The notes under the pieces were generated by a model. It was not told where the DNA came from. It searched no databases and saw nothing but the letters and a program-made list of their open reading frames with translations. From an uncultured Acidobacteriota bacterium (GTDB lineage Bacteria; Acidobacteriota; Blastocatellia; Pyrinomonadales; Pyrinomonadaceae), in contig CALMYB010000010.1 of NCBI GenBank assembly GCA_937873515.1, positions 186,001-250,000 of the forward strand: a DNA stretch of 64,000 nucleotides. Direction: 5' to 3'. Below, piece by piece: positions 23,286 through 26,851 of this stretch (the first letter of the stretch is position 1; every line of letters starts with the position of its first letter). The position numbers and the translations under genes were made by a program.

Positions 23286-23789
23286 ATGAAGCTTCAGGCA
23301 AAAATTGGAAATGAAACATCGGCGGTCAGCGTCAAGGAGGAAGGCAACCGCCTTTTTGCCGAGATCGACGGGCGTAAATACGGATTTGAGGCCGTACAGC
23401 CCGAGACCGGACAAGTCAGTCTGCGGTTCGACGACGGCAGAAAGATCGAGGCTCGCGTTGAGCTCGATGCCGAAGGCCGCTACATCGTGTGGATAGATGG
23501 CCGCTCTATTGAACTTGAGCTGGCAGACCCGAAAAAGTTACGCGGATCGAGCACGTCGAATGCAGACGCGGCGGGTGTGGCCGACATCAAGACCGCAATG
23601 CCTGGAAAGGTCGTTCGACTTATCGCAGCGGTCGGCGATACTGTCGAAAAGGGTGATGGCGTGATCGTCGTCGAGGCGATGAAGATGCAGAACGAGATCA
23701 GGTCCCCAAAAAATGGTACGGTTTCTTCGGTTCGCGTTGCGGAAGGCGATACCGTCAAAGCAGGCCAAATATTGCTCTCTATCGAATAG
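23286..23789 (+). CDS. Biotin carboxyl carrier protein (acyl-CoA carboxylase type)
   Basis: The C-terminal about 70 residues form a biotinyl domain with the attachment motif EAMKMQNE (Lys133), PGKVV before it and GQILLSIE at the end. The N-terminal about 85 residues are a beta-rich domain of the sort found beside propionyl-CoA or methylcrotonyl-CoA carboxylases. The enzyme's carboxylase partners are not in the window. The presence of methylmalonyl-CoA mutase at 7825 makes propionyl-CoA carboxylase a reasonable guess. Its 3' end overlaps the convergent pheA by 11 bases. Confidence 0.88.
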   Translation: MKLQAKIGNETSAVSVKEEGNRLFAEIDGRKYGFEAVQPETGQVSLRFDDGRKIEARVELDAEGRYIVWIDGRSIELELADPKKLRGSSTSNADAAGVADIKTAMPGKVVRLIAAVGDTVEKGDGVIVVEAMKMQNEIRSPKNGTVSSVRVAEGDTVKAGQILLSIE

Positions 23790-24633
23790 ACGTGGTTCTT
23801 ACGACGACGAAGGTCGTAGAGTTGTCCGCCTTGTCGGCAATTTCACGCTTTAGGATCACGCCGCCGTAGAGTTCGACCGCCGCTTCGCCGCAGATCGATG
23901 CCGAACTCAGATCGTTCTGCCAAACGATCTCTCGAAGACTCGCCGCCGTATCGGTCGTTTCGACGGCCTTAAGTCTAGGCTCACTATTTAAGAACACTGC
24001 GCACTGACGCAACGCTTCGGGATGAGAATGGACATTCGCGATGCCTTCCAGCGAGGCCCCAGAAGCACCGGCCAGAACATGCCGGACCTCAACATCCAGC
24101 GACTCCACAACGGCGAGGTCGATGGCTTTCAGGTACTCCTTGGTGGACAGGATCTCCCCGACCGTCGAGTTCTCTTTCGGGATGACGGCAAATCCGACCT
24201 GGCCGCTTCGCAAAAGAGCGAACACCTCGTCGAAAGTATCGCAGCCGATGATCTCGATGTCGGAACCCAACGCTGTCAAGGCGGCCTGCTCGCTGTACGA
24301 CCCGGGAGCCCCCTGGATCGCCACCTTTGTAAGTGAACAATCGTCTATGACCTCTAACTCCTTCACCTGCTCGACCGCCTGCACACGCCGCGAGTCCGCC
24401 AGGATCGCCTCGTAGATCTGATCGACCACGCTAGCATCTACAACGCCGCCGCTCAGGCTTCTGACCCGGTCAAATATTCGGATCTCGCGCTCTCGGTCGA
24501 GGATCGGCATCCCCGAACTTTGCTTCAAACGCGATATCTCACGAGCGATCTCCACTCGCTTTGCCAGCAAGCCGACGATCGCGCTGTCCACGTCATCAAT
24601 TTGCCTTCTCCAATCGTCTAAGTTCATAAACAT
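23779..24633 (-). CDS. pheA: Chorismate mutase-prephenate dehydratase lacking the ACT domain
   Basis: The bifunctional P-protein turns chorismate into phenylpyruvate for phenylalanine synthesis. Residues 1-90 are an AroQ chorismate mutase (LDDWRRQIDDVDSAIVGLLA, REREIRIFDRV). Residues about 105-280 are prephenate dehydratase (AIQGAPGSYSEQAA, VIPKENSTVGEI, NSTTFVVV). The usual NxTRF motif reads NSTTF: the threonine is kept and the arginine replaced. The protein ends there, at 284 residues, without the ACT domain that gives phenylalanine feedback; the DNA beyond is the 3' end of the convergent biotin-carrier gene, so the domain is truly absent. A Phe-rich leader and terminator lie upstream. ATG at 24627 is an alternative start. 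Confidence 0.93.
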   Translation of the reverse strand: MFMNLDDWRRQIDDVDSAIVGLLAKRVEIAREISRLKQSSGMPILDREREIRIFDRVRSLSGGVVDASVVDQIYEAILADSRRVQAVEQVKELEVIDDCSLTKVAIQGAPGSYSEQAALTALGSDIEIIGCDTFDEVFALLRSGQVGFAVIPKENSTVGEILSTKEYLKAIDLAVVESLDVEVRHVLAGASGASLEGIANVHSHPEALRQCAVFLNSEPRLKAVETTDTAASLREIVWQNDLSSASICGEAAVELYGGVILKREIADKADNSTTFVVVRTTSIR

Positions 24634-24636
24634 TAT

Positions 24637-24666
24637 AAAAGGCCGCGAATCTTGTCATTCGCGGCC
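24637..24666 (-). terminator. Attenuator terminator hairpin in the pheA leader
   Basis: The minus strand reads a perfect 10-bp stem GGCCGCGAAT / ATTCGCGGCC with a 6-base loop, followed by TTTT. It ends only 3 to 4 bases before the pheA ATG at 24633 and 32 bases after the stop codon of the leader peptide. The 5' arm contains CCGCGAA, which can instead pair with TTCGCGG within the leader coding sequence (codons 19-21), giving an alternative, antiterminating fold. Confidence 0.85.
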
Positions 24667-24697
24667 CTTACTCTCGAAACTTTTATGCGTCTTTTAG

Positions 24698-24790
24698 TTA
24701 GATCCTGACACAGCTTCCGGCCGCCTTCCGCGAAAAGTAGTTCGCATAAAAGCTAAAAAAGGAAATAAAACCGAACGTGCTAGATGTCAT
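24698..24790 (-). CDS. Phe-rich leader peptide of the pheA attenuator
   Basis: This 30-codon frame (ATG at 24790, TAA at 24698-24700) encodes a peptide with six Phe and two Tyr, concentrated in TFGFISFFSFYANYF (residues 5-19). It lies upstream of pheA and between a promoter-like sequence and a terminator hairpin, the classical layout of translational attenuation as in enterobacterial pheL. A ribosome stalled on the Phe codons would be expected to free the leader strand to pair with the terminator 5' arm. No strong ribosome site precedes the ATG. The peptide's composition is hard to explain otherwise. Confidence 0.8.
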   Translation of the reverse strand: MTSSTFGFISFFSFYANYFSRKAAGSCVRI

Positions 24791-24811
24791 CGTTATCACA
24801 ACCCAATTAGA

Positions 24812-24840
24812 AAAATAAAGCTTTCACGGTGTCTGGTCAA
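24812..24840 (-). promoter_or_regulatory. Promoter of the pheA leader operon
   Basis: On the minus strand TTGACC (24840-24835) and TATTTT (24817-24812) are separated by exactly 17 bases. They match the sigma-70 -35 and -10 elements in 5/6 and 4/6 positions. The leader ATG lies 22 bases beyond the -10, so the leader would be near the 5' end of the transcript. Confidence 0.6.
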
Positions 24841-24877: not shown

Positions 24878-26851
24878 TCATGTTCTGTGAAAGCCCCGTT
24901 CAATGTCCTTCATCGAAAGTCGGAGAATGACCGGTCGCCCATGCGGACACGTCGTCGGCGATGTGGTCAGTACGAGTTTGTCGATCAACCAGCGCATCTT
25001 CTCTGGAGTCAACTTCATATTGATCTTGACGGCCGCACGACAGGCCAGCGATGCCGCGATGTCATCCCTGAGCGGCGTCTTCGCACCTCGCCGCTTCTCG
25101 GAATCAACGGCATCCAACAACTCTGCGAATAGGTTTCTCGCCTCGGACGGAGGCAGGTCGGTAGGTACGCTCTTGATCGCGACCGTCCGTCCTGAAAGAC
25201 GCATCGTACTAAATCCAAAAAGTGCGAGGTCGCTCTCTATGACCGAAAACGCCTCGGCCTGGGCGGGCGAAAGGTCCAACGTCTCCGGCAACAGAAGATT
25301 CTGAGACTCCATTTGGCGTTCAGCTTCGGACCGCCGAAACTTGTCGAAAAGTATTCGCTCGTGAGCGACGTGCTGATCGATCAGAAGTATGCCCTCATCA
25401 TCGACCGCAATAATGAAACTCTCACGAAGCTGCCCCAGCGGCTGGATCTTCGAATACGAAAGTGATTCGGGATCTGCAGGCTTTGCAAAGTGAGTCGCAG
25501 AGTTGAGAGGCGGAAGTTCCGGCAGATCGACGGTACTCGCTGACGATGGAACGGCGGCATGATGCTCGCTTGCAGCCGCAGCGTTCACAAGCATCTGGTC
25601 TTCAAATGCCCGGTCAAAGAGATCGAGTTTAGAGGGCTGCTCGCTTGGCAAAATCGTTGGGCTCTTGGCAGCGACCTCCGCAGTTTCGCGTTCCAAGGCC
25701 ACATTGGCAACGTTGCGGTCGAAATCCTCATTTAGGGGGACCGGGTCAGGCGAAAAATCAATCGGCTCCTGTACGCTCACTTCCTGAGCGACGGCAGGCA
25801 ACGTCTCCGCATAGGACCGCACCGGCTCATTCTCGGCAACGTCCGGCTCACCGACCACGCCCGCACTCGAGAGTGCCGAACGGACCGCCTCCGCGACGGC
25901 ATCCCTTACCGCTTCGGTTCGCCGAAATCGAACCTCGGTCTTCGAAGGATGAACGTTCACATCGACCTCATCGAGCGGCAGGTCAATAAACAAGAATGCG
26001 ACGGGATATACACCGTGGGGTAAAACTGACCGATAGCCTTCGAGGACACCGCCGGCGATGGTTTTGTCGCGAACGAATCTTTTGTTTACAAAGAAGTACT
26101 GCTGATCGCGAGATGTCCGCCGCTCACGAGGCGCGGAGACGTAACCAGAAACCGTCGCAACATACTCGCGTCCGCCTGCGACCGGCAAAAGGCTATCGAG
26201 CAGTCCGCCGCCAAAGATCTGAAAAGCTCGTTCGCGAAGGTCTTTCGCAGGCGCAGCATTCAGCGACTCACGGCCGTTGTTCGTCAGAAGAAACGCGATC
26301 TCAGGGTGCGCCAGGGCATAGTGAGTGACGATCTGAGTGAGGTGGTAATTCTCCGTCGCCTCCGAACGCATAAATTTACGGCGGGCCGGCGTGTTGAAGA
26401 AAAGGTCGCGGATCGCGATCGTCGTCCCGGTGTCGCGAGCCGCATCTTTCACATCGACCAGTCGGCCGCCTTCGATCACAACGCGAGTCGCGGCAATAGA
26501 GCTGTCGGTTTTCGTAATAAGTTCGGTCTTAGAAACTGAGGCTATAGATGCCAAAGCTTCCCCGCGAAAACCGAGCGTCCCGATCGCCGCAAGATCTTCG
26601 AGCGTTTTGATCTTCGAAGTTGCATGTCTTTCGAATGCAAGTATCGCGTCGTCGCGAAGCATGCCAACGCCGTCGTCTGAAACACGAATGAGTCTGCGTC
26701 CGCCAAGTTCGATCTCGACCGCGATGCGGCCCGCTCCCGCGTCGATCGCATTCTCGATGAGTTCTTTAACGACAGAGGCCGGCCGTTCGACGACCTCTCC
26801 GGCCGCGATCTGATTGGCAAGATTATCGGGAAGTACGCGGATCTTATTCAT
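24878..26851 (-). CDS. mutL: DNA mismatch repair protein MutL
   Basis: MutL couples mismatch recognition by MutS to strand incision and removal. The N-terminal GHKL ATPase is complete: NQIAAGEVVERPASVVKELI, IENAIDAGAG, VSDDGVGM and GFRGEALASIASV. The middle about 200 residues are a variable linker, and the C-terminal dimerisation domain has LLIDQHVAHERILFDKF and CPHGRPVILRLS. The protein is 657 residues, in the normal range. It overlaps the upstream bshC stop by 4 bases, so the two are cotranscribed. The CPHGRP motif is seen in MutL proteins with endonuclease activity, though the DQHxxHER motif is the variant present here. Confidence 0.95.
   Translation of the reverse strand: MNKIRVLPDNLANQIAAGEVVERPASVVKELIENAIDAGAGRIAVEIELGGRRLIRVSDDGVGMLRDDAILAFERHATSKIKTLEDLAAIGTLGFRGEALASIASVSKTELITKTDSSIAATRVVIEGGRLVDVKDAARDTGTTIAIRDLFFNTPARRKFMRSEATENYHLTQIVTHYALAHPEIAFLLTNNGRESLNAAPAKDLRERAFQIFGGGLLDSLLPVAGGREYVATVSGYVSAPRERRTSRDQQYFFVNKRFVRDKTIAGGVLEGYRSVLPHGVYPVAFLFIDLPLDEVDVNVHPSKTEVRFRRTEAVRDAVAEAVRSALSSAGVVGEPDVAENEPVRSYAETLPAVAQEVSVQEPIDFSPDPVPLNEDFDRNVANVALERETAEVAAKSPTILPSEQPSKLDLFDRAFEDQMLVNAAAASEHHAAVPSSASTVDLPELPPLNSATHFAKPADPESLSYSKIQPLGQLRESFIIAVDDEGILLIDQHVAHERILFDKFRRSEAERQMESQNLLLPETLDLSPAQAEAFSVIESDLALFGFSTMRLSGRTVAIKSVPTDLPPSEARNLFAELLDAVDSEKRRGAKTPLRDDIAASLACRAAVKINMKLTPEKMRWLIDKLVLTTSPTTCPHGRPVILRLSMKDIERGFHRT

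Follow-up and report, generated by a model that had tools for sequence, protein, structure and literature searches.

What controls pheA, the gene for the sole prephenate dehydratase in the 3.56-Mb genome of an uncultured Pyrinomonadaceae bacterium (Acidobacteriota)? The question arises in a 64,000-nucleotide stretch of contig CALMYB010000010.1 (the window), where pheA is preceded by a short open reading frame (ORF) rich in Phe codons and by a hairpin with a run of T. In E. coli, the same layout switches the Phe pathway off when phenylalanine is plentiful. A preliminary description of the window had read these elements as an attenuator, and our analysis supports that interpretation with one correction, which places the antiterminator strand at leader codons 23-24: pheA very probably lies behind a classical ribosome-mediated transcription attenuator that senses charged tRNA-Phe. 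The locus carries the marks of this class, namely a Phe-rich leader ORF, an intrinsic terminator placed between it and the structural gene, and an antiterminator that shares a strand with this terminator and that a ribosome positioned on the control codons would expose. The elements are as follows.

24812..24840, (-) strand: promoter-like element, -35 TTGACC at 24840-24835, 17-bp spacer, -10 TATTTT at 24817-24812; 9/12 consensus positions
24698..24790, (-) strand: pheL-like leader peptide ORF, 30 codons, MTSSTFGFISFFSFYANYFSRKAAGSCVRI and a stop codon, 6 Phe and 2 Tyr
24718..24773, (-) strand: predicted 1:2 hairpin, 24773-24769 with 24722-24718 and 24753-24741 with 24734-24723 (RNAalifold, five leaders)
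24719..24724, (-) strand: segment 2, the antiterminator 5' strand, GCGGCC at leader codons 23-24, covarying with segment 3
24676..24717, (-) strand: predicted inner stem within the antiterminator, GAAGCUGUGUC at 24717-24707 with GACGC at 24691-24687 and AGUUUC at 24681-24676 (RNAalifold, five leaders)
24657..24666, (-) strand: segment 3, the terminator 5' arm, GGCCGCGAAT, pairing with segment 2 as well through its first six bases
24641..24650, (-) strand: segment 4, the terminator 3' arm, ATTCGCGGCC, covarying with segment 3
24637..24640, (-) strand: T run of the intrinsic terminator, TTTT
23779..24627, (-) strand: pheA, a fusion of chorismate mutase (CM_2) and prephenate dehydratase (PDT) without an ACT domain; ATG 24627 conserved, 24633 possible

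The promoter-like sequence, the leader and the hairpin read as the preliminary description had them. The terminator hairpin, GGCCGCGAAT-GACAAG-ATTCGCGGCC at 24666-24641, is a perfect 10-bp stem followed directly by TTTT, and hairpin and T run stop ~10 nt 5' of the pheA ATG. We refined this start to ATG 24627, which appears more likely than ATG 24633, since the latter is replaced by CTG or TTG in relatives. The inner stem carries the leader stop codon in its loop. The combination of leader and terminator is not a chance product: an equally Phe-rich short ORF arose in none of 60 shuffles of the upstream region, the genome has no second copy of the hairpin sequence, 10-bp arms included, and only one of the 2 strong terminators found in the window, that of pheA, is preceded by an amino-acid-biased leader.

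The near relatives of this genome are Acidobacteria metagenome-assembled genomes, and the pheA of SZAS-14 is 97% identical to that of the window. The same ACT-less fusion is found in four genomes of the genus, each with a leader (29-30 codons, 6-7 Phe), a promoter and a terminator; both promoter hexamers and the 17-bp spacing are kept in these close relatives, one base off in G022. The preliminary description had staked its reading on conservation of the Phe-rich frame among close relatives, and the frame is present in all four (4/4) and is kept at more distant ACT-less loci as well. Across the family, a Phe-rich leader was found at 30/30 ACT-less loci examined, preceding pheA in fused loci and the chorismate mutase gene in loci with separate genes. 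Nearly all 30 leaders were unequalled in 60 shuffles of their region; that of L008 is weak (3 Phe) but retains the RNA pairing.

Alternative RNA pairings

An attenuator of this kind should hold two helices that exclude each other. Using a sequence-only alignment (A2) of 20 ACT-less leaders, we found that the terminator helix (3:4) is paired in 94% of cells and shows 25 two-sided changes, a result that none of 500 shuffles matched. For the antiterminator (2:3), RCGGCY at codons 23-24 (window numbering) and RGCCGY in the terminator 5' arm are paired in 96.7% of cells; there were 15 two-sided changes at two positions (8 and 7 sequences), 0/500 shuffles were as good, and controls with the strand slid along the leader paired in 20-44% of cells. 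Covariation across relatives, which had been proposed as a check, thus supports both alternative pairings. Segment 2 thus duplicates the terminator 3' arm, a signature of alternative pairing.

The antiterminator strand had previously been placed at TTCGCGG of codons 19-21, facing CCGCGAA of the terminator. The complementarity is there, but the role is not supported: over the 20 leaders this pairing holds in 53% of cells, no better than slid controls, whereas GCGGCC of codons 23-24 pairs in 97%, and we rejected the former as unsupported beyond the closest relatives. In the five close sequences, codons 19-21 instead pair with codons 16-17, inside the 1:2 hairpin that also holds segment 2. This hairpin has few covarying pairs and is the weakest of the helices; according to the folding models, it would sequester the antiterminator strand when the leader is free of ribosomes. 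In the window sequence the 1:2 hairpin reaches -13.1 kcal/mol, the hairpin made by 2:3 plus the inner stem -17.4 kcal/mol and the terminator hairpin -21.2 kcal/mol, and the whole region folds with z = -3.0.

Ribosome position and the proposed switch

Would a ribosome at the Phe codons throw this switch? We masked the RNA under a ribosome, placing each codon in turn in the A site, and calculated how probable 2:3 is before segment 4 is made. Over the 20 leaders, the modelled mean 2:3 probability was 0.85 at Phe codons, 0.00 at the stop codon and 0.33 without a ribosome, the last value being 0.00-0.02 in the five-member group of the window. The permissive stretch ends in the model at about the last Phe codon. 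In 20/20 leaders, 8-15 nt separate the first base of that codon from the start of segment 2. Such spacing is the distance at which a stalled ribosome would be expected just to expose segment 2, and it fits Phe as the control codon.

The DNA itself shows all the parts, that they are conserved and that both alternative helices covary; from this we infer leader translation, stalling, termination in the cell and phenylalanine as the signal. The transcript would begin just upstream of the leader ORF. With Phe-tRNA scarce, the leading ribosome would wait at the Phe codons (6-19) and open the 1:2 hairpin, whereupon segment 2 (codons 23-24) would pair with segment 3, no terminator would form and pheA would be transcribed. 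With ample phenylalanine, the ribosome would get to the stop codon and cover segment 2, so that 3:4 would terminate transcription a few bases before pheA. On an untranslated leader, 1:2 would keep segment 2, and termination would be the default in the close group of the window.

Several observations weigh against this mechanism or its generality. The model assumes both a footprint length and folding at equilibrium. Without a ribosome it gives antitermination in about a third of relatives, and default termination is therefore not general; for L079 it yields no 2:3 pairing, whichever codon the ribosome occupies. The leader frame shows no significant excess of synonymous substitutions (a fraction as high as the real one arose in 312/2000 column shuffles), so the case for translation of the leader is built on its Phe content, frame and position and not on the pattern of codon substitution. 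Finally, in a second ACT-less lineage (L062-L069, L080 and L081), the leader held no simple complement to the terminator arm that we could find. The leader, the terminator and a GTGCT/AGCAC stem are all conserved in these ten loci, and by eye a pairing of CGGCGAAG...CTTCAACGAGCCAGCCG around that stem is possible.

The foremost alternative is that the switch is mainly translational, the terminator hairpin blocking ribosome entry to pheA and the 2:3 pairing freeing it. The hairpin and T run do end very near the start codon, with no Shine-Dalgarno sequence visible between them and ATG 24627; however, the T run directly after the hairpin is conserved, and relatives with separate genes have a more distant start codon, often with a GGAG-like site, which makes this reading unlikely. 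We consider it very unlikely that the hairpin is an ordinary terminator of mutL, which ends on the same strand at 24878, upstream of the promoter, and that the Phe-rich ORF arose by chance in T-rich DNA. Phe codons arise easily from such DNA, but dinucleotide shuffles do not reproduce their density, a conserved promoter separates mutL from the hairpin, covariation ties the terminator arm to a segment of the leader, and the same arrangement precedes chorismate mutase genes whose upstream sequence is, by eye, unlike mutL.

Slightly more improbable still is that the leader ORF, co-transcribed with pheA, is the gene of a small protein that has its own function, for instance a hydrophobic peptide. 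A GSCV motif at the C-terminus of the peptide, conserved in the close group and in L020, would suit such a protein, but these conserved codons overlap the RNA helices (segment 2 and the inner stem), the peptide otherwise varies freely among relatives apart from its aromatic content, and the ORF is followed by a terminator. That a T-box or other ligand-binding riboswitch senses phenylalanine in place of a translated leader is barely credible, since a terminator with an alternative helix is typical of riboswitches too but a riboswitch needs neither a Phe-rich frame nor fixed codon spacing, and no Rfam family, T-box included, reached its gathering threshold in the window or at 14 related loci.

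Loss of the ACT domain and distribution of leaders

If pheA is governed by a ribosome-mediated attenuator, what of control at the enzyme? The ACT domain is the usual Phe-binding regulatory domain. The window PheA matches PF01817 (chorismate mutase) and PF00800 (prephenate dehydratase) of Pfam in one ORF, with no ACT domain match, and the PDT match ends at residue 280 of 284. Compared with a three-domain P-protein (chorismate mutase - prephenate dehydratase - ACT), it thus has the fused catalytic domains and lacks the C-terminal ACT. E. coli PheA, in contrast, has an ACT domain.

A prephenate dehydratase is encoded in 68/119 genomes of the family, and 51 have none. We placed the loss of ACT on a tree of 87 dehydratase domains, in which the ACT-less loci with leaders form two separate lineages of the family. 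The larger (20 loci) has a long branch and is placed among ACT-bearing fusions that lack a leader; the smaller (10 loci) adjoins ACT-bearing loci that already have a leader. While every ACT-less family locus has a leader (30/30), leaders were found at 9 of the ~37 ACT-bearing family loci with enough upstream sequence: three-domain fusions mostly go without one, apart from L012 and L036, and most ACT-bearing enzymes whose mutase is separate do have one. Phe-rich matches upstream of L023 and L025 were rejected as leaders, being simple repeats (runs of GATTTTGG).

With only two loss events, no strong statistical claim can be made for a link between ACT loss and the leader. Nor is the link obligatory, since two ACT-less prephenate dehydratases (L089 and L100) of another family, one of 3.7-Mb genomes with two contigs, have no leader that we could find; a strict rule that an enzyme without ACT has a leader was accordingly discarded. 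In the lineage of the window, much of the Phe control that an ACT domain would exert on the enzyme probably falls to the attenuator, although this is less certain than the attenuator itself. That Phe feedback in the family moved from the enzyme to attenuation, with two separate ACT losses and an attenuator at each ACT-less locus found there, is a tentative reading to which we give slightly less than an even chance. Loci with and without ACT, and with and without a leader, form a natural set in which to ask whether gene-level and enzyme-level feedback can substitute for one another.

One genome (G107; 71% complete, 5% contaminated) holds both an ACT-bearing fusion without a leader (L045) and an ACT-less enzyme with one (L071), which are either a true pair or a product of contamination. 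Separately, the genome of the window (97% complete) has no match to histidinol dehydrogenase (PF00815); together with the 51 family genomes that have no prephenate dehydratase, this suggests that histidine and phenylalanine auxotrophy may be common in the family.

Known systems and other leaders

The closest described counterpart is enterobacterial pheL-pheA (RF01859, Phe_leader), which shares with the window the gene, a Phe-rich leader peptide, a mutually exclusive antiterminator and terminator, and a terminator placed just before pheA, and which differs in phylum, leader peptide and stems. The RF01859 model matched at the right place and over its full length, though very weakly (14.2 bits, E 8.2; its threshold is 55 bits), and the element of the window is therefore not a member of that family. 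Open papers describe leader peptides in Proteobacteria and Actinobacteria, with proposals for Firmicutes and flavobacteria (PMC2965389, PMC1262725, PMC9723704). The actinobacterial attenuators (PMC1262725) and flavobacterial proposals (PMC9723704) resemble the present case in pairing a leader peptide with a terminator and antiterminator outside Proteobacteria, and in a conserved GC-rich triple of pairing segments, and differ from it by phylum. The former cover trp, ilv, leu and cys, not pheA (PMC1262725), and the latter include a structured pheA 5' region (PMC9723704); a further pheA motif is actinobacterial and marked uncertain as RNA (PMC2864571).

Within the phylum, Naville and Gautheret (2010) predicted premature terminators genome-wide, and almost no functions were assigned to the Acidobacteria attenuators at that time; the main text mentions neither pheA nor phenylalanine (PMC2965389). 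We found no description of pheA or trp attenuation in Acidobacteriota in open papers, subscription literature lying outside our scope, which agrees with the preliminary description, where none was known for such organisms. The kind of mechanism is thus already known, and the RNA element and its host group are apparently new. For a class of attenuators that had almost no functions in Acidobacteriota, the locus supplies a concrete one, and Phe leader peptides are thereby extended to a further phylum.

Further leaders occur beyond the family and beyond pheA. In other families of the class, Phe-rich leaders also stand before ACT-bearing prephenate dehydratases, some with complements of the terminator arm (L101, 0/200 shuffles; L091, 1/200 shuffles). 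In one genus elsewhere in the phylum (L110-L128), short conserved MTxSRxFFFSFRTPGARVGGV-like leaders are followed by a CCCCCGAG...CTCGGGGG terminator and then by the prephenate dehydratase gene. In the genome of the window itself (G000), trpE (L135, G000:C1) is preceded by the leader MKFFGAIYYAFDLYTFFWWQFTGASLRSHLTVKN, which has many Phe, Tyr and Trp residues, a WW pair among them, and by a strong terminator, and a WW leader is found at 16/30 trpE-type loci of the genus. With a Trp-Trp leader before trpE as well, the host seems to control aromatic amino acids regularly by leader-peptide attenuation.

Downstream of pheA, the next gene is convergent and overlaps the end of pheA by a few bases. 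Only two strong intrinsic terminators were found on both strands of the window, and most of its genes therefore probably end by other means.
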